In this document: in pieces, positions 1-11,164 of the stretch | Position numbering within the stretch: the stretch's first letter is position 1 | Layout: each line of letters starts with the position of its first letter | NCBI RefSeq assembly: GCF_040939305.1 | Contig: NZ_CP162511.1 | Coordinates: 3,038,001 to 3,102,000, forward strand | Direction of reading: 5' to 3' | DNA: 64,000 nt | Origin: Herbiconiux sp. A18JL235 | GTDB lineage: Bacteria > Actinomycetota > Actinomycetes > Actinomycetales > Microbacteriaceae | Made by a program: the position numbers and the translations under genes | Notes under the pieces: model-generated | The model's database searches: none | What the model saw: the letters and a program-made list of their open reading frames with translations, nothing else | What the model was told of the DNA's origin: nothing

Positions 1-94
1 ACCCGTTACTCTTCATTCCGAAAATGCCACCTTCGTCGAGATGTCGGGCCCGCACCCTAGTCTGGTTACATCCAGCATGAGGGGAGGTTCAGCG

Positions 95-1414
95 ATGCCG
101 GGAGGCAAGAAGCTCAGCCGTAGCGAATTGATCGGTGACGCCGGCATAGCTCTCATCCACGGCAGAGTTGCCGAGATGGGACACGCGTGGCGCGCTCAGA
201 ACCTCGATGCCGGTATCGATGGCAGCATCGAACTGCGTGACCCGGCTACGGGCGAGATGAGTAACCAGCACGTCTTGGTTCAAAGCAAGGCGAGCAACAA
301 CCCGTTCGCTGGGGAGACCAATGATCGGTTCCATTACATCTGCGACGAGCGCGACCTCGATTACTGGATGAAGGCGTCTCAGCCGGTGCTTCTGGTCTGT
401 TCACATCCGGAACTCGGTGAGGCCTGGTGGGTGCACATCCAGAGCTACTTTGCCGAACCAGCGCGGCGCGCCGATCGACGTGTTGACTTCACTAAATCCA
501 CGATGCGACTCGCCGGCGATATTTCGGAACACCTCTTCGCGATCGCCGATCCGGAAGGCCGCGCCCACACTCCGGTGCCCGTGTTAAAGACTGAGAAACT
601 GACCTCGAACTTGGTCAGCGTGCTTACACCACGCGTTGCGCTCTCGTATGCAACGACAGCGCGAAAGCCCGGTGACGTCTACCGCGCCCAGCGCCCCACG
701 GAGCTGCCTCGTCGTCACGACTTCGCTGTGGCTAACGGGCGAATTTGGACATGGTCGCAAGCCGACGGCACAGCTCTAGAAGCCGCAACTCAAGGTTCCC
801 CCGAGGCTCACGACATCGATTTTCTGGCAGGCGACGGCGATTCCGGGGAGAGATTAGTCGTACAGCTACTCAGCGGAGCGCTGCGAGACGATCTCCGGGA
901 AGACTGCGACATGGACCTCAACCGACGGATTCTGTACTTCCGAGCGCCTGAAGACCTCAGCATGCGAAAGTGGCACACGGGAGGATCACACTCACGGACG
1001 GTTTTTAAGGGGTACCCGAGCAAGAAGGACCCTTCAAGAATGAGCTATTACCGACACGCCGCCCTCAGCTGGCGTTTCCTACGCGCCGACGACTATTGGT
1101 TCTGTGCGCTCTTGCCCGACTACTACTTCAGCTGGGACGGCCGACATGAGTCCAACTTCGCAGCGAGCCTCCTCACCAAGATGAAGCAGATGGATCGTCA
1201 TGCGGCGGTCCGTCAAGAAACGCTGATGTGGGCGTCGATTCTTCGCCGCGAGGGCAACTTGATCGAGACTCCCCGCTCACGCATCCTCGAGTTCGGCGAG
1301 CTTCAGTCCTTCGTCATCGACCGCGGCATCGACGACAGCGCCTGGAAGCGCCCGGTGGAGCCGGCGGTAAACAGTGGAGACACGGAACTCGACCTCTTCG
1401 GTGATTCCGCGTGA
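95..1414 (+). CDS. DUF4365 nuclease-APAZ protein (DREN-APAZ) of a SPARDA-type short Argonaute system
   Basis: This is the likely effector subunit of a short prokaryotic Argonaute system. I chose ATG 95 because a GGGGAGG box at 81-87 sits 7 bases upstream; an in-frame ATG at 41 lacks one. The 439-residue product begins with a DUF4365 domain (about residues 8-150) with a PD-(D/E)xK-like core: GIDG around D42, then VQSK (Q63, K65). From about residue 180 it looks like an APAZ domain, starting near the PRRHDFAVANGRIW stretch; APAZ is the part that pairs with short Argonautes. The stop overlaps the Argonaute start (GTGA), so translation is probably coupled. In characterised SPARDA systems, target recognition by the guide-loaded Argonaute unleashes non-specific nuclease activity of this subunit. 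Family assignment is from motifs and neighbourhood, not from a search. Confidence 0.85.
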   Translation: MPGGKKLSRSELIGDAGIALIHGRVAEMGHAWRAQNLDAGIDGSIELRDPATGEMSNQHVLVQSKASNNPFAGETNDRFHYICDERDLDYWMKASQPVLLVCSHPELGEAWWVHIQSYFAEPARRADRRVDFTKSTMRLAGDISEHLFAIADPEGRAHTPVPVLKTEKLTSNLVSVLTPRVALSYATTARKPGDVYRAQRPTELPRRHDFAVANGRIWTWSQADGTALEAATQGSPEAHDIDFLAGDGDSGERLVVQLLSGALRDDLREDCDMDLNRRILYFRAPEDLSMRKWHTGGSHSRTVFKGYPSKKDPSRMSYYRHAALSWRFLRADDYWFCALLPDYYFSWDGRHESNFAASLLTKMKQMDRHAAVRQETLMWASILRREGNLIETPRSRILEFGELQSFVIDRGIDDSAWKRPVEPAVNSGDTELDLFGDSA

Positions 1415-2844
1415 AGCTCGCATTCATCGATGAGCCCGATCTTGAGTTCGCGAACGGAAGCCGCCACACGGATCCACGGCACGGTGTCACGTTCTATGGG
1501 CCAGCGGATCTCAACAGTTCTGGATCACGCACGATCCGCGTAGGCATCGTTGGCACCAAGGAAGCGATCGATGGAGTGAAGCGTTGGCTGGACAGCTGCC
1601 GCACCCCGATAGCCGCGAAGCGCAGCCATTTGACAGGACTCTTCGTAGCCTTTCCAGGGTTCGCAACGAACGCCGGGTTTCACTCGACGATCGTATGGGA
1701 CTCGCGGCTCGAGCGCACCATATCCGCCAGCGAACTGCGAAAACTCGACGGCATGAACCCTCTGAGGGCTATCGAACAAGCTGTCGAGCTCTACGATTCC
1801 GAGCTGTCCGCGCTCAACGAGGAGCCGGGCTGCGACGTCGTCATTGTCTGTCGACCTGACTCCCTGCCCGAGCAAGTCTCGACCATCGGCAACTCGGACA
1901 AGCCATGGCAGGACCCGAAGGTTGTTTCCGTCGGAGCTGACTTCCGAGCACTTCTCAAGGCTCGATCACTCAAGACGTCACGCCCAATACAGATCCTGAG
2001 GCGCGACACGTGGGACCCATCGTTCAAACCAAAAGACCGAGACGAGCGTCGAGGCCAGCAGGACGACGCAACGAAAGCATGGAATCTGCACACTGCGCTC
2101 TATTACAAGGCGGGTGGAATGCCCTGGCGCATGACACGCGCCCCGCAGGACCTGACGAGCTGCTACATCGGAGTTGCGTTCTACCGCACCACCGACGGCG
2201 AGACACTTCAGACCAGCGTGGCCCAGGTGTTCAATCAACGAGGCGACGGCGTCATAGTACGCGGAGCACCTGCGCGGCAGTCCAAGGGAGACCGACAGCC
2301 GCATCTGAGCGAAGCCAATGCCAAGGACCTGCTCGTGCAATCGCTAGCACGCTATCGATCTGAGCACCGAACGATGCCAGCGCGAGTCATGTTGCACAAA
2401 GCTTCGTCATTCACCGACGCAGAGCTGAGGGGATTTCGCGCGGGTGCGGATGCCGAGCACATAGACCTGCTGGAACTGATCTGGCTACCGCACCACGATT
2501 CAGTCCGTCTATTTCGCCAAGGGGAACAGCCGCCCCTGCGGGGAACTCTGCTCTCACTTGATGACAACCGGCACGTGTTATATACACGAGGGAGCGTTCC
2601 GCTCTACAAGAGCTACCCCGGCATGTATGTCCCATCGGCGCTTCCCTTTCGTCCCGCAGACGTCGAATCCAGTGCGGATGAGATCGCGACGGAGCTACTC
2701 ATGCTGACGAAGATGAACTGGAACGCCACGCAGCTGGATGGCCGTCTGCCTATCACCCTTCGCACGGCGGATTCGATCGGGGACATTCTGAAACACCTAC
2801 CTGAAGGCGAGATCCCCGCACCACGCTACGCGTACTACATGTAG
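1411..2844 (+). CDS. Short prokaryotic Argonaute (MID-PIWI), catalytically inactive
   Basis: The 477-residue protein has the hallmarks of short pAgos: an N-terminal DPRHGVTFYGPAD segment (residues 21-33), a MID region, and the signature YYKAGGMPWRM (231-241) just before the PIWI fold. Where active PIWI domains have the first aspartate (GxDxS), this reads IGVAF (A256). At the later aspartate site it reads MLHKASSF (K330, A331). It therefore should bind guide and target but not slice. It starts with GTG overlapping the stop of the DUF4365-APAZ gene, the usual two-gene arrangement. Expected role: guide-directed sensor of plasmid or phage nucleic acid that activates its partner. The codon use, with AGA, TTA and ATA codons, is looser than in most of the window, which fits horizontal transfer. 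Confidence 0.88.
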   Translation: MKLAFIDEPDLEFANGSRHTDPRHGVTFYGPADLNSSGSRTIRVGIVGTKEAIDGVKRWLDSCRTPIAAKRSHLTGLFVAFPGFATNAGFHSTIVWDSRLERTISASELRKLDGMNPLRAIEQAVELYDSELSALNEEPGCDVVIVCRPDSLPEQVSTIGNSDKPWQDPKVVSVGADFRALLKARSLKTSRPIQILRRDTWDPSFKPKDRDERRGQQDDATKAWNLHTALYYKAGGMPWRMTRAPQDLTSCYIGVAFYRTTDGETLQTSVAQVFNQRGDGVIVRGAPARQSKGDRQPHLSEANAKDLLVQSLARYRSEHRTMPARVMLHKASSFTDAELRGFRAGADAEHIDLLELIWLPHHDSVRLFRQGEQPPLRGTLLSLDDNRHVLYTRGSVPLYKSYPGMYVPSALPFRPADVESSADEIATELLMLTKMNWNATQLDGRLPITLRTADSIGDILKHLPEGEIPAPRYAYYM

Positions 2845-3240: not shown

Positions 3241-3900
3241 TTGCAGGACGAACTGCGCCCGCTCGTCAAATCGCGGCAGCGCGTCGCCGATCACGGTGAA
3301 GTGTTCACGCCGCGGTGGATGGTGGAGGACATGCTCGACTTGGTCAAGAGCGAGACTGAGCGCATCGACTCGCGGTTTCTTGAGCCAGCTTGCGGGTCTG
3401 GAAACTTCTTGGTGCCGGTCCTCGAACGCAAGTTGACGGTTGTTCAGTCCAGGTATGGACAAAGCAACTTTGAGCGCCGCCACTATGCGCTGTTTGGACT
3501 GATGTGCATCTACGGGATAGAGCTACTACCGGACAACGCGGCCGAATGTCGCGACAACTTGGTGAGTACTTTCGCTCGGGTTCTGAAGCTCGACGCCGAT
3601 GACGGCTTGGTAGCTGCGGCCGGAGCGGTGGTGGCCGTGAACATCGTGCAAGGAGATGCCCTTGCGATGACCGATGCCCACAGTACCGCCATTGTGTTCC
3701 CTGAGTGGGCATATATAGGTCGGGGAAAATACCAACGCCGCGACTTCCGGTTCGACGCCCTGACGCAACGCTCCGCGGCATCGGGCACGCTCTTCGACGC
3801 ATTCGAGGAGCACGAGATCTTCACTCCACTACGCGCATACCCAGCCATGACCTTCGACCAGATCGCCCGAGGATCGCAACATGACCACATCCGCACTTGA
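3241..3900 (+). CDS. N6-adenine methylase-like subunit with SAM-binding motif I but no NPPY (RM system)
   Basis: I start this gene at TTG 3241 because a CAGGAGG box lies just before it and the in-frame sequence further upstream is transposase debris. The 219-residue product has EVFTPRWMVEDML near the N-terminus and a classic SAM-binding motif I, FLEPACGSGNF (47-57). It then has IYGIELLPDNAAECRDNLV and an IVQGDAL segment, as in HsdM/Eco57I-type N6 methylases. It ends before any NPPY catalytic motif, so it resembles only the cofactor-binding half of a methylase. It overlaps the next gene by 20 bases. Working with the next two genes in one restriction-modification complex is inferred from the operon; a split or duplicated methyltransferase is the simplest reading. 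Confidence 0.75.
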   Translation: MQDELRPLVKSRQRVADHGEVFTPRWMVEDMLDLVKSETERIDSRFLEPACGSGNFLVPVLERKLTVVQSRYGQSNFERRHYALFGLMCIYGIELLPDNAAECRDNLVSTFARVLKLDADDGLVAAAGAVVAVNIVQGDALAMTDAHSTAIVFPEWAYIGRGKYQRRDFRFDALTQRSAASGTLFDAFEEHEIFTPLRAYPAMTFDQIARGSQHDHIRT

Positions 3901-5479
3901 GGCCAAAGCCAGCTTTTCGCTCCGAGCTCACAACCCGGATGTTCTGACGTGCATCGCGAACCTCTCCAACGACGAAGTGTTCACACCGCCCGCACTCGCG
4001 AACCAGATGCTCGACATGGTGGCTCGCGCCTGGGCCGATTCCCACGACGGCGGTCAGATTTGGAACAACGCTGACGTCAAATTCCTCGATCCCTTCACGA
4101 AGTCGGGCGTGTTCCTACGCGAAATTGTCTCACGCTTGATCGACGGTCTCGCTCACCAAATCCCAGACCTGCAGGAGCGAGTCGATCACATTCTGACCAA
4201 GCAGGTCTACGGCATCGGGATCACACAACTGACTGCGTTACTGGCAAGGCGCAGCGTCTATTGTTCGAAGGATGCCACGGGCGAGTACTCCGTGGCGAAG
4301 AGTTTCGATCGTGACTGGGGCAATATTTGGTTTGAGCGCACGCAGCACACTTGGGCAGGTGAGAAGTGCTCCTATTGCGGCGCATCGAAAGCGGGCTACG
4401 GGCGCGGCGACGAGTTCGAGACTCACGCCTACGCCTTCGTCCACACGACCAACCCGCGAAAATTACTTGCGAAAGTGTTTGGAGCCGACATGCAATTCGA
4501 TGTGATTATCGGAAATCCGCCGTACCAACTTGCCGATGGCGGCGGCACAGGATCAAGTGCGCGTCCGATCTACCAGCTGTTCATTCAACAGGCACAACTG
4601 CTAGAGCCGCGCCTTCTTTCAATGGTGGTCAAAGCCAACTGGTACACCGGCGGAAAGGGCCTCGATGGTTTCCGCGCATCCATGCTCGGTGATCGCCACC
4701 TGCGTCGATTAGTAGATTTCCCCGATTCGCGTCAAGCTTTCGAGGGGGTAGACATTGCGGGTGGCGTCTGTTTTTTTCTGTGGGATCGTGACAACCCCGG
4801 GGACTGTGTCGTGGAGACGCGGATCGGCGGTGAAACTATCACCGCGACACGGCGACTCGACGAGCACCCCGTCTTCGTGAGGGACAATCGAGCGCTTGAA
4901 ATAGTGGAGAAAGTAAGTGCGCCCGGCGCGGCGGCATTTTCTCGGCGCGTGTCTGCGAGAAATCCTTTCACCATCGACGCCCGTCATGAACGTGATAAGG
5001 AGGGCGAACTCTATTTGTACGCAAGCGGCGCAGACGGCCGCGTAGACCGCTCATATGTGGCACGGGGACACTCTCTCATTGACTCCTGGAAGGTGCTGGT
5101 CTCTAAGACCTCGAGTGAGCATGCCGGGCAGACAGACAAACAGGGGCGACGCCGAGTGCTCTCACGAGTGGAAGTCATGCCACCAGGGTCGGTCGCCACA
5201 GGCTCGTACCTCGTGGTCGGACCCTTTGACTCTGAGAAGGAAGCATCCAATGCCGCGAACTATCTGCGGACCCGATTCGCGCGATTCCTCATTTCTGCCG
5301 TTCTGCTCACTCAGAACATGACTCGCGCGTCGTACGACTTCGTCCCGGACCGCGACTTTACGAGGGCATGGAGCGACATCGAACTCTATGAGCAGTATGG
5401 ACTTACCGAAAGTGAGATCGTGTTCATCGAATCGCAGATTAAACCCATCGCGGTCGACGCTGAGGACAAGGATGCCTAG
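3881..5479 (+). CDS. Eco57I-like N6-adenine DNA methyltransferase
   Basis: The 532-residue protein carries DEVFTPPALANQMLDMV (31-47), a motif I-like LDPFTKSGVFL (69-79) and the catalytic motif IV NPPY (212-215), typical of Eco57I/type I-like adenine methylases. Motif I is imperfect: KSG stands where GxG is usual, while the preceding small subunit has a perfect one. A KCSYCG segment (162-167) could bind zinc. The C-terminal half should contain target recognition, with aromatic-rich stretches and no other recognised domain. The start overlaps the upstream gene by 20 bases, and the helicase gene overlaps its stop by 8 bases. All three therefore look co-translated as one restriction-modification system protecting the host sequence. 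Confidence 0.85.
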   Translation: MTTSALEAKASFSLRAHNPDVLTCIANLSNDEVFTPPALANQMLDMVARAWADSHDGGQIWNNADVKFLDPFTKSGVFLREIVSRLIDGLAHQIPDLQERVDHILTKQVYGIGITQLTALLARRSVYCSKDATGEYSVAKSFDRDWGNIWFERTQHTWAGEKCSYCGASKAGYGRGDEFETHAYAFVHTTNPRKLLAKVFGADMQFDVIIGNPPYQLADGGGTGSSARPIYQLFIQQAQLLEPRLLSMVVKANWYTGGKGLDGFRASMLGDRHLRRLVDFPDSRQAFEGVDIAGGVCFFLWDRDNPGDCVVETRIGGETITATRRLDEHPVFVRDNRALEIVEKVSAPGAAAFSRRVSARNPFTIDARHERDKEGELYLYASGADGRVDRSYVARGHSLIDSWKVLVSKTSSEHAGQTDKQGRRRVLSRVEVMPPGSVATGSYLVVGPFDSEKEASNAANYLRTRFARFLISAVLLTQNMTRASYDFVPDRDFTRAWSDIELYEQYGLTESEIVFIESQIKPIAVDAEDKDA

Positions 5480-8039
5480 GCTCACCGACGAGCTCCTTCC
5501 CACGAAACCCGAGTCGCGTCCGCAGCTCTATGCATGGTCATCCGATGAGGTAGCGCCGCGCTGGCGCGGCTGCCTGAAGGTTGGGCAGACCACGCGCGAT
5601 GTGAATACGCGAATCCGCGAATCACAGGGCCAAGCACGCGTCGGCTACACCGTCGAGGTCGCCGAGCCTGCGGAGCGTTCTGACGGGTCACTGATCAGTG
5701 ATGTCGAGGTGCGCCAGCGTCTCATTGAGAAGAACTTTGAGAACGTCGTCTTCGAGTCGAGCACCGAGTGGATGCGTTGTACCGCCGACGATGTGAAGAC
5801 CGCGATCGCTGAGCTTCGAGCCGGTAAGAAGTATGAAGGCACGCACCACGCTACGTTTGCGATGCGCGCCGAGCAATCATCTGCGGTCGAAAGCACGCTC
5901 GAGTACTTTGATAGCCGCTGGGCAGAAGACTCGGGCGCCGTGCCGGAATTCCTTTGGAATGCAAAGATGCGCTTCGGTAAGACTTTCGCCGCATACCAGC
6001 TCGCGAAACGCATGGAAGCCAAACGCGTGCTTGTCATGACATTCAAGCCCGCTGTTGAAGACGCGTGGGACATCGATCTAAAGACGCACGTCGATTTCGA
6101 CGGGTGGCAATACCTGTCCCGCAAGACGGGCGGCGACCCTGCGACTGTCGATCGCAACCGGCCCTTGGTGTATTTCGGGTCATTCCAGGACCTTCTGGGA
6201 CGAGACGCTGCCGGCAATTTCAAGGCTAAGCACGCCTGGCTTTCCGAGCTCACCTGGGATCTGGTCGTCTTCGACGAATACCACTTCGGCGCATGGCGTG
6301 ATGCCGCCCGCGAATTGTTCGAGGGCGAAGACGACAAGTCGCAAAAGAAAGGGACCGAGGACGAGTTCAGCAAGGATCTTGAGACGTTCGCTGAGAATCT
6401 CGAGGAGACAGGCCTTGACGAGGACGCCTTCGTTCCGATCAAAGCGCTCGCCTACCTCTATCTCTCGGGGACACCGTTCAAAGTGCTCAAAGAAGGACGG
6501 TTCATCGAAGAACAGATCTTTAACTGGACATACACCGATGAGCAACGCGCAAAGCAGGCGTTTGCGCAGGAGTTTCCCGACCAACCGAGCCCTTACGCCG
6601 CCCTCCCCGAAATGCGCTTGCTGACATACCAGATGCCCGAAGAGCTACTTGCGGTCGCGAGCCAAGGAGAATTCGACGAGTTCGACCTCAACGCGTTTTT
6701 CGAGGCGAAGGTAGTCGACGGTGTCGCAGAGTTCGTGCACAAAGACGACGTGCAGAAGTGGCTCGACATTATTCGCGGCAACTATGCGCCCACTCAGGTT
6801 GACTATCTAAAGTCCGGCACTCGTCCGCCATTTCCTTACTCCGACACTCGCCTTTTGCCATACCTTCAGCACTCACTCTGGATGCTGCCGCGAACCGCAG
6901 CCTGTGGCGCAATGGCGAATCTGCTTGCCGAGCCGCACAACGTCTTCTGGCACGACTATAAAGTCGTCAATGTCTCTGCCCCTGGCATCGGAGTCGGACT
7001 CGACGCTCTCCCGCCTGTTCGCCAGGCGATCGGTAGCGGGTTCGACACCAAGACGATCACTCTCACCGTGGGTAAGCTCACGACCGGGGTGACCATACCG
7101 CAATGGTCCTCGATCCTCATGCTCCGCAATCTGCAGGCACCCGAGACATATTTTCAGGCGGCGTTCCGAGTTCAGTCGCCTTGGACTATCCGCAATCCAG
7201 ATGGCGATAACCCTTCGCGCGAGGATGTCCTCAAGCCTGTCTGCTTCGTCTTCGATTTCGCGCCGACGCGTGCCCTTCGTCAGATGAGCGATTACGGAAC
7301 CGGACTCGCACCTGAGGAACGCAACCCGGAGAATGCCGTCGAAGAGCTGGTGAAGTTCCTGCCCGTCCTTGCATACGACGGATCACACATGACGCAGGTT
7401 GACGCCGCCGGTATCCTCGACATTGCTATGGCGGGGACCTCTGCGACGCTTCTTGCCCGCAAGTGGGAGTCGGCCGTCCTCGTCAACGTTGACAACTTTA
7501 CGCTTCGGAAAATCATGGACTCTCAGGCGGCACTGGATGCTGTGATGAACATCGAGGGATTTCGAGCGCTCGGCTCCAACGTCTTCGAAACTGTCGTCAA
7601 CAAGAGCGAAGCCGTCAACAAGACTAAGAAAGAAAAGGGCGATGATCTAACTCCCGGCGATAAGGCCGAGCTGTCAACTGAGGAGAAGGAATACAAGTCC
7701 AAGCGAAAGCAGATCCAAGAAAAGCTGATCAAGTTCGCGACTCGTATCCCGGCGTTCATGTACCTGACGGATTACCGCGAGAACACACTGTACGATGTCG
7801 TAACGAAGATCGAGCCCGAGCTTTTCAAGGCGGTAACAGGTCTGACGGTTGACGACTTCAACCTGCTCGTGTCGCTGGGTGTCTTCAACGCCGGGCACAT
7901 GAACCAGGCAGTATTCGCGTTCAGGCGCTACGAAGACGCATCACTCTCGTACACAGGAATAGCCGTGAACGGCGGCCGCCGACGAATCGGCCTGTTCGAC
8001 ACCGTCGTCGCCGCCGAACCTGAACGGCACATGTCCTGA
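5472..8039 (+). CDS. GIY-YIG nuclease-SF2 helicase fusion, restriction subunit
   Basis: The start is ATG 5472, inside the end of the methylase gene. The 855-residue protein begins with a GIY-YIG/T5orf172-like segment: QLYAWSS (18-24), then LKVGQTTRDVNTRI (35-48), with conserved Tyr, Lys-Val-Gly and Arg. From about residue 130 it is a superfamily 2 helicase: Walker A-like AKMRFGKTF (164-172), DEAH-type box DEYH (268-271) and motif III-like LSGTPFK. A second helicase lobe follows with a KLTTGVTIPQW segment and an RVQSPW motif. This is the predicted ATP-dependent translocating endonuclease, with DNA cleavage assigned to the GIY-YIG domain. That assignment is inference from domain order. The N-terminal nuclease fusion distinguishes it from ordinary type III Res subunits. 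Confidence 0.82.
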   Translation: MPRLTDELLPTKPESRPQLYAWSSDEVAPRWRGCLKVGQTTRDVNTRIRESQGQARVGYTVEVAEPAERSDGSLISDVEVRQRLIEKNFENVVFESSTEWMRCTADDVKTAIAELRAGKKYEGTHHATFAMRAEQSSAVESTLEYFDSRWAEDSGAVPEFLWNAKMRFGKTFAAYQLAKRMEAKRVLVMTFKPAVEDAWDIDLKTHVDFDGWQYLSRKTGGDPATVDRNRPLVYFGSFQDLLGRDAAGNFKAKHAWLSELTWDLVVFDEYHFGAWRDAARELFEGEDDKSQKKGTEDEFSKDLETFAENLEETGLDEDAFVPIKALAYLYLSGTPFKVLKEGRFIEEQIFNWTYTDEQRAKQAFAQEFPDQPSPYAALPEMRLLTYQMPEELLAVASQGEFDEFDLNAFFEAKVVDGVAEFVHKDDVQKWLDIIRGNYAPTQVDYLKSGTRPPFPYSDTRLLPYLQHSLWMLPRTAACGAMANLLAEPHNVFWHDYKVVNVSAPGIGVGLDALPPVRQAIGSGFDTKTITLTVGKLTTGVTIPQWSSILMLRNLQAPETYFQAAFRVQSPWTIRNPDGDNPSREDVLKPVCFVFDFAPTRALRQMSDYGTGLAPEERNPENAVEELVKFLPVLAYDGSHMTQVDAAGILDIAMAGTSATLLARKWESAVLVNVDNFTLRKIMDSQAALDAVMNIEGFRALGSNVFETVVNKSEAVNKTKKEKGDDLTPGDKAELSTEEKEYKSKRKQIQEKLIKFATRIPAFMYLTDYRENTLYDVVTKIEPELFKAVTGLTVDDFNLLVSLGVFNAGHMNQAVFAFRRYEDASLSYTGIAVNGGRRRIGLFDTVVAAEPERHMS

Positions 8040-9461: not shown

Positions 9462-9775
9462 CAAACCGTGGCGTTGCGAGACGAACTGCTTTAGACAGCC
9501 TCGCAGAGCGGGGTCGTGGATGTAGACGGAGGTGCCGCGGATGCTCTTCGTGAATAGCAACCGCGTAGACATTCTGGATATACCGAAGCAGGTCCTCGTT
9601 GGATTAGGTGTGACCGAGCGCGTTGTCCACCTCCTTGCCCCTCTTGTCCAAGCACGGGGCGCGGTCGACGACGATGCGGCCCGTCGTCGTGTCGAAGCGG
9701 AGGTCGAGGCCGATGATCATGCCGGCCTCGTTGAGGCGGGGAGTTGGATCGCCCTTCCCCTGCTGGCCTTCACAG
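9440..9775 (-). pseudogene. Decayed gene of unknown family (nonsense plus frameshift)
   Basis: Reading the minus strand gives a protein-like stretch, EAGMIIGLDLRFDTTTG then RIVVDRAPCLDKRGKEV, followed by an in-frame TAA. It continues in the same frame as SNEDLLRYIQNVYAVAIHEE and then changes frame to RGTSVYIHDPALRGCLKQF. The segments join naturally, so this was once a single coding region. I cannot name the family. It is partly overlaid by the 3' end of the 49-residue gene on the plus strand. Confidence 0.5.
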
Positions 9776-10195
9776 GCCTACAGCGGCCAGCCCGAAGTTC
9801 GCCTGGTCGGGTGTGACCCCCTCGCCGTACTCGCTCGCCAACTGTTCATACAGCCCGTCGCGGGAGAAACCTTGGATTTCAAGGTACGACTTGGCTGATT
9901 CAGCGGCTTCCTGATTCCAGTCGACGGCGCCGGTGGATCTTAGATAGGCGATCGCAAACTCGGCGTCTTCGGGCGTGAACCCTTCGCCGTACTCGCTGGT
10001 TAGCTGCTCAGTGAGCCCGACGCGCGAGAAGGCCGAGAACGACAGGTAGGACTGGTCCGAGCGGACCGCGCTGGACTGCGCGGTGGTCATCGCAGGCGTC
10101 TCGGGCTTTGCCGGCGTCTCTGGCTGTGCGGGTGCCGGTGCGGCGGCGGCCGTCCAGTTGCTCCGCGACGCGAGCGAGAGTTTTGCGGCCTAGCA
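9770..10195 (-). pseudogene. 5'-truncated Ltp-like (host cell surface-exposed) lipoprotein
   Basis: The C-terminal part holds two tandem Ltp-family repeats: SYLSFSAFSRVGLTEQLTSE with EGFTPEDAEFAI, and SYLEIQGFSRDGLYEQLASE with EGVTPDQANFGL. These are the PF07553-type repeats seen in phage superinfection-exclusion Ltp proteins and many actinobacterial surface lipoproteins. Upstream is an Ala/Pro-rich linker, but the frame is closed by TAG near 10195 and no signal peptide or lipobox cysteine can be found in frame. Either the N-terminus has been lost or translation begins at an internal ATG (10090) giving a cytosolic fragment. I treat it as a pseudogene. Confidence 0.6.
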
Positions 10196-10797: not shown

Positions 10798-10912
10798 GCG
10801 CAAAGGCTACGCCCAGAGGTGGCCGCGAACCGAAGCGATGACGCCTCAGGCTCACGCAACATCCCCCGGTGCCGACGCCACTCGGCTCCGGGCGGCCGAA
10901 AGCGGGCGACGT

Positions 10913-11004
10913 GGGGTGGGTGATCCGGTCGAGTCATAGGCATCGGGCCTGGCGGGAGGCCGCGCAGCGCCGCGGGACTATGACTCGACCGGATCACCCA
11001 CCCC
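10913..11004. repeat. Perfect 27-bp inverted repeat with 38-bp spacer
   Basis: Bases 10913-10939 are the exact reverse complement of 10978-11004. The spacer holds a further 5-base stem, GGCCT/AGGCC. Each arm, read outward, contains ATGACTCGACCGGATCACCC. The similarity continues imperfectly outside the arms. There is no T-run, so it is not an ordinary terminator. It sits between the globin pseudogene and the LAxTG surface-protein gene. Confidence 0.85.
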
Positions 11005-11164
11005 GCGGCGCCCAACCACCCGAGTCGCTGAGGTGGCCGAAACAGACCTAGGTCTATTCCTCGCGCCACCGGGCGCAGGAAACATGAGTAACGCAACGTC
11101 GGGCGAGCCTTGAGACTCCGCCGACGTGCATCCACGTTTCGACCCGAGCCCGATGAGGTGCTAC

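Follow-up and report, generated by a model that had tools for sequence, protein, structure and literature searches.

A SPARDA operon with a DREN-APAZ effector and a predicted inactive short Argonaute in Herbiconiux sp. A18JL235

Two described systems are the closest guides to the locus reported here, and both are nucleases that act collaterally. The DUF4365-APAZ/short prokaryotic Argonaute (pAgo) heterodimer of Thermocrispum municipale (Tmu), TmuRE-Ago, was characterized biochemically in 2023, and is reported to degrade unrelated DNA after RNA-guided recognition of a DNA target (PMC10810196). The SPARDA system of Novosphingopyxis baekryungensis (Nba) is likewise described as a collateral nuclease (PMC12205087). 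We compared with these systems a two-gene locus at positions 95..2844 of a 64,000-nt stretch of the Herbiconiux sp. A18JL235 genome (contig NZ_CP162511.1, positions 3,038,001 to 3,102,000; hereafter the window). Its assignment as a SPARDA operon, encoding a DREN-APAZ protein and a short pAgo predicted to be catalytically dead, is well supported by sequence and fold comparisons.

Operon architecture and catalytic residues

The operon has an effector-first, two-gene order, with the open reading frames (ORFs) overlapping by the 4 nt GTGA, and comprises the following features, all on the forward strand.

81..87, Shine-Dalgarno-like GGGGAGG, 7 nt upstream of the ATG at 95, from the sequence
95..1414, DREN(DUF4365)-APAZ effector, 439 aa, from Pfam, PADLOC, and PDB matches
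95..532, DREN nuclease domain, approximately residues 1-146, with D42/Q63/K65; domain limit transferred from Nba
572..1357, APAZ domain, approximately residues 160-421, from structural alignments to 9qbl_A and 9vx1_E
1411..1414, GTGA overlap, the pAgo GTG start lying within the TGA stop of DREN-APAZ
1411..2844, short pAgo (MID-PIWI), 477 aa, PIWI catalytically inactive

The N terminus of the effector, the DREN nuclease of PD-(D/E)XK type, matches Pfam DUF4365 (E = 1.4e-22), with no other Pfam family reaching E ≤ 0.1, and the protein as a whole matches the PADLOC model PDLC02398 (8.7e-128) and, in a PDB sequence search, the NbaSPARDA DREN-APAZ chain (2e-35). DUF4365 occupies the N-terminal place of the APAZ partner, where the TIR NADase domain of SPARTA (TIR-APAZ) is absent. 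The pAgo consists of MID and PIWI only, lacking N and PAZ domains, and is the single match to itself in the 4.3-Mb genome. Neither protein matched any NCBIfam model at E 0.1. Both group with the solved SPARDA complexes of Nba, Xau, and Eae by profile matches, by sequence searches of the PDB, and by their predicted folds. The original prediction, made from the sequence alone, had proposed a SPARDA-type pair of a DUF4365-APAZ fusion and a MID-PIWI pAgo, and this identification is borne out by the same three lines of evidence. DUF4365 and APAZ were both found in the first protein (Pfam, PADLOC, and structural alignments), with an APAZ-like fold over approximately residues 160-421, where residues 180-439 had been proposed. 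The predicted coordinates, the GTGA coupling, the YYKAGGMPWRM motif, and the numbering of D42, K65, A256, K330, and A331 are all correct.

Residues were mapped between systems through printed pairwise alignments, and conservation was counted over the best 120 of 2522 pAgo matches and the best 120 of 204 DREN-APAZ sequences, in each case with the Herbiconiux protein included. D42, Q63, and K65 of the Herbiconiux DREN domain correspond to Nba D41, Q60, and K62, and all three are invariant wherever a letter is present, Q63 and K65 being kept in 118 of 118 letter-bearing rows of the 120. The counterpart pair in Tmu, in its own numbering, is given as Q62/K64 (PMC10810196).

The PIWI domain, in contrast to an intact slicer, has lost its tetrad, as had been predicted. 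In a profile-profile alignment with Thermus Ago, D478 is matched by Y258, E512 by a gap, D546 by A331, and D660 by D454; the D478 counterpart had been placed at A256 in the register of the original prediction. D454 is the sole acid at a tetrad position and is replaced by Glu, Ser, or Asn in some relatives. A Piwi-family profile search gave no match in the source genome, hence this profile misses short pAgos; a Piwi-family match from another genome (G582) gave no useful alignment and was dropped.

On this basis, it is very probable that the locus encodes a guide-triggered system of oligomer-based, non-specific DNA cleavage. The pAgo and DREN-APAZ would pair 1:1, with a small guide RNA loaded in the MID pocket, and pairing of the guide with invader DNA would lead to higher-order oligomers of these complexes, bringing the DREN nuclease domains together. 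The joined DREN domains would then cleave DNA without sequence specificity, leaving the infected cell killed, arrested, or dormant. For the nature of guide (RNA) and target (DNA), and for assembly, collateral activity, and a role in defence, this reading is inferred from Nba and Tmu.

A PIWI domain without catalytic residues, beside a partner fused to a nuclease, could also be read as a complex that cuts only its guided target DNA, with DREN substituting for the lost slicer and no collateral suicide, which is the earlier view as cited in PMC10810196. The same paper, however, reports that the Tmu complex, whose pAgo is 62% identical to that of Herbiconiux, cut unrelated M13 single-stranded DNA and plasmids after binding its guide and target, whereas the target itself was only slightly cut, and only when other DNA was absent. 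Nba is also reported to act collaterally (PMC12205087), and target-only cleavage is therefore highly improbable here.

Guide pocket and assembly contacts

The lysines that bind the guide 5'-phosphate in Nba (K187 and K240) are Lys in all 120 pAgo rows, and are K183 and K233 in both Herbiconiux and Tmu. The base 2 contact Nba N232 is equally invariant (Asn in 120/120), and the R183 column holds Arg in 87, His in 31, and Tyr in 2 rows. The base 1 pocket is where the proteins diverge: the column of Nba W201 is Arg in 118 of 120 rows and Lys in the other 2, the Herbiconiux residue being R197, and Nba W159 shows no conservation across the rows. Nine plasmid-borne pAgos were also compared, taken from 12 loci fetched of 99 matching plasmid records (two with in-frame stops, one unused). 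The W201 position is Trp in 5/5 intact alphaproteobacterial DREN-type proteins, and among the intact SMEK-type proteins it is Arg in three of four and Leu in the fourth; Arg at this position is thus not special to the Herbiconiux branch. The Tmu system is reported to require a 5'-U guide and to be more active with 5'-OH guides (PMC10810196), and Arg in place of Nba W201 fits the 5'-U requirement. Since the Herbiconiux pAgo resembles that of Tmu in overall identity (62%) and has the same Arg at 197, we expect that it would also prefer 5'-U guides.

The contacts that assemble the Nba complex appear, from the alignments, to be partly kept and partly changed in the Herbiconiux branch. At the PIWI-PIWI interface, the K324 column is Arg in 112 and Lys in 7 of 120 rows, the E360 column is Asp in 83 and Glu in 5, R285 is Arg in 113, and F256 is replaced by Leu in 108. 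For docking of DREN onto MID, R123 is Arg in all 120 rows and R122 in 86. In the APAZ dimer, R279 is Arg in 91 rows, R260 is Arg in 79, and F354 is Phe or Tyr in 114, with Y261, Y349, and Q353 variable.

Several observations weigh against the proposed mechanism. The Nba R287-E253 PIWI-PIWI contact corresponds to D279-P245 in Herbiconiux, and the MID-PIWI residue D480 to R472. Among the seven Nba residues of the DREN tetramer, only E45 (Herbiconiux E46; Glu in 118/120, with 2 gaps) is invariant, the Herbiconiux changes being E13 to Asp, N17 to Ala, R20 to His, Q29 to Ala, D31 to Arg, and R33 to Gln. The predicted model of DREN-APAZ is also of limited quality (pTM 0.65). Across the aligned pAgos, the R287 column is Asp in 120/120 rows and the E253 column mostly Pro, Ser, or Ala; in five intact alphaproteobacterial pAgos the R287 position is Glu in four and Arg in one, so this contact is not general even in alphaproteobacterial relatives. 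In the tetramer columns, N17 is Ala in 94 of 120 rows, R20 is His in 87, Q29 is Val in 87, D31 is His in 85, R33 remains Arg in 84, and E13 is Asp or Glu in 80. The best Foldseek rows for DREN-APAZ reached a whole-chain TM of only ∼0.5, which we read as two domains joined by a flexible linker in the model, because APAZ by itself aligned with a root mean squared deviation of 1.7-3.1.

Filament structures exist for Nba, Xau, and the HNH-type Aca system, and since all three form filaments, target-induced filament assembly is quite possible in the Herbiconiux branch as well. It is doubtful that the Herbiconiux/Tmu branch constitutes a mechanistic sub-type, in which an R197-lined pocket for 5'-U (possibly 5'-OH) guides would stand against the Nba tryptophan pocket for 5'-A, together with partly different DREN assembly contacts; the kept contacts, once recounted, lower its probability. 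The residue differences from Nba, as read from the alignments, are a testable lead and no evidence of a new mechanism.

Genomic setting and distribution

The operon has a restriction-modification-like cluster as its neighbor and lies in a defence segment of low GC content. GC content is 0.555-0.604 (1-kb windows) from ∼0.5 kb before the start of the window to approximately position 10000, 0.63-0.65 over the 2 kb before the segment, and 0.65-0.72 farther out on both sides, the genome outside the segment being ∼69% GC. The neighboring features are as follows.

L041:9418-15723 (window approximately -8.6 to -2.3 kb), upstream, DUF4011/SF1 helicase/MTES_1575 restriction endonuclease protein, 2101 aa, from PADLOC PDC-S37 and Hhe models
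3241 (likely TTG start, after AGGAGG), N6-methylase piece, with no obvious NPPY motif by eye
3881-5479, Eco57I-type methylase
5472 (likely start) to 8039, T5orf172 (GIY-YIG type)-helicase
9770-10090, reverse strand, small protein carrying a pair of Lipoprotein_Ltp repeats (PF07553, E = 6.5e-34)

Of the 15 other genus genomes, 7 have matches to the 2101-aa gene at 83% identity or more, some of these copies being fragmented or interrupted by stops. At the one alternative site opened (G013), it is followed by MzaC/MzaD-like, DruM-like methylase, and AbiU genes; the presence of other defence-like genes after it in one other species suggests a defence hotspot. Downstream, the three overlapping genes at 3241-8039 are recognized by models for methylases, type IIG systems, and T5orf172. 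A single PADLOC type IIG model (PDLC03626) spans the last two genes, each aligning to a different portion of it, so the cluster looks like a split restriction-modification system. It was rejected as part of SPARDA: the genes have models of their own, and none was matched in the loci of 16 relatives at E 1e-5, a weak test as many of these loci span 3-6 kb. On a Methylosinus plasmid, the SPARDA operon likewise has GIY-YIG and DEAD-helicase genes as neighbors, encoded on the opposite strand. The PF07553 family name (host cell surface-exposed lipoprotein) presumably points to a protein of the phage superinfection-exclusion type.

An imperfect palindrome of ∼110 bp (36-nt arms, similar loop) flanks the low-GC segment, at window positions 10904-11013 and contig positions 3035770-3035880 (L041:15770-15880), the only two places found in the genome (40 of 55 first-look candidates scored). 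Its recurrence in related form in 5 of the 15 other genus genomes (one of them with as many as 17 matches, each strand counting separately) speaks against its being the ends of the element, and we regard it as a palindrome repeated within the genus.

The operon is patchy in distribution. In a search of 149 relatives, including those 15, only the source genome and a fragment in one family genome (G082) matched; the latter is a pAgo remnant (L042:1475-1602) of 10 + 33 C-terminal residues over two frames. A class-level draw gave matches in 6 of 394 genomes, the source genome included, and among the five others, with short loci to search, a DREN-APAZ partner was found beside the pAgo in one (L045). 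Effector-first order with a full-length DREN-APAZ was found in 8 of 16 relatives' loci (L002, L003, L045, L094, L095, L097, L098, and L105), five of the 16, from L094 onward, having been chosen for an annotated DUF4365 and several others being short. The pAgo had no counterpart in phage records at E 1e-5, and a scan of viral contigs with the Tmu pAgo matched no pattern. Composition and patchy distribution together indicate that the operon was probably acquired horizontally.

The low-GC location, the lack of a match in 15/15 other genus genomes, and the C-terminal fragment in G082 could also be taken as signs of a decayed or non-functional copy within a defence island. Both ORFs, however, are full length with their 4-nt overlap, the catalytic residues and 5'-end lysines that were checked are kept, and full-length proteins 71% and 86% identical are found in Microbacterium rhizosphaerae, making decay highly improbable.

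Comparison with described SPARDA systems

The operon is a well-formed further example of SPARDA, ordinary in kind. The original prediction had held that an actinobacterial member of this size, with a VQSK-type core, would widen the family; this fails, as Tmu is already characterized, named relatives are common, and the Q/K pair is conserved. Both the size and the VQSK core are typical, and novelty by these or by host phylum is ruled out. T. municipale is itself an actinomycete (Actinomycetota), with a pAgo (P0174) 62% identical to that of Herbiconiux. Named relatives of both proteins among the 240 listed include the actinobacterial genera Microbacterium, Gryllotalpicola, Promicromonospora, Nocardioides, and Streptomyces, the nearest named isolate among the matches listed being M. 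rhizosphaerae. The same gene pair is carried by Miniimonas arenae (DREN-APAZ 63%, pAgo 73% identity) and Saccharothrix deserti (39% and 51%). Actinobacterial SPARDA is therefore not new.

TmuRE-Ago shares with the Herbiconiux system an actinomycete host, 62% pAgo identity, R197, K183/K233, and the Q/K pair in DREN (PMC10810196), but has been tested biochemically, whereas the Herbiconiux system is known from sequence. NbaSPARDA (9jsb, 9jsz, and 9jt2; PMC12205087) is alike in the architecture and fold of DREN-APAZ and short pAgo, in D41/Q60/K62 and K187/K240, and in a contact of the K324-E360 type; it differs in W201, W159, R287-E253, and several DREN-tetramer residues, which Herbiconiux has not kept. 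XauSPARDA and EaeSPARDA (9qbl, 9qbq, and 9qcc; 9qbp) give the top structural Z for the Herbiconiux pAgo (43.5), but have Trp in place of R197 in the printed alignments. The SMEK-APAZ short pAgo plasmid systems have Arg at position 197 in three of four intact proteins, although their effector is annotated as SMEK and not DUF4365. For the differing guide 5' preferences of Nba and Tmu, W201 versus R197 offers a one-residue hypothesis, and the main use of the Herbiconiux operon is thus comparative.
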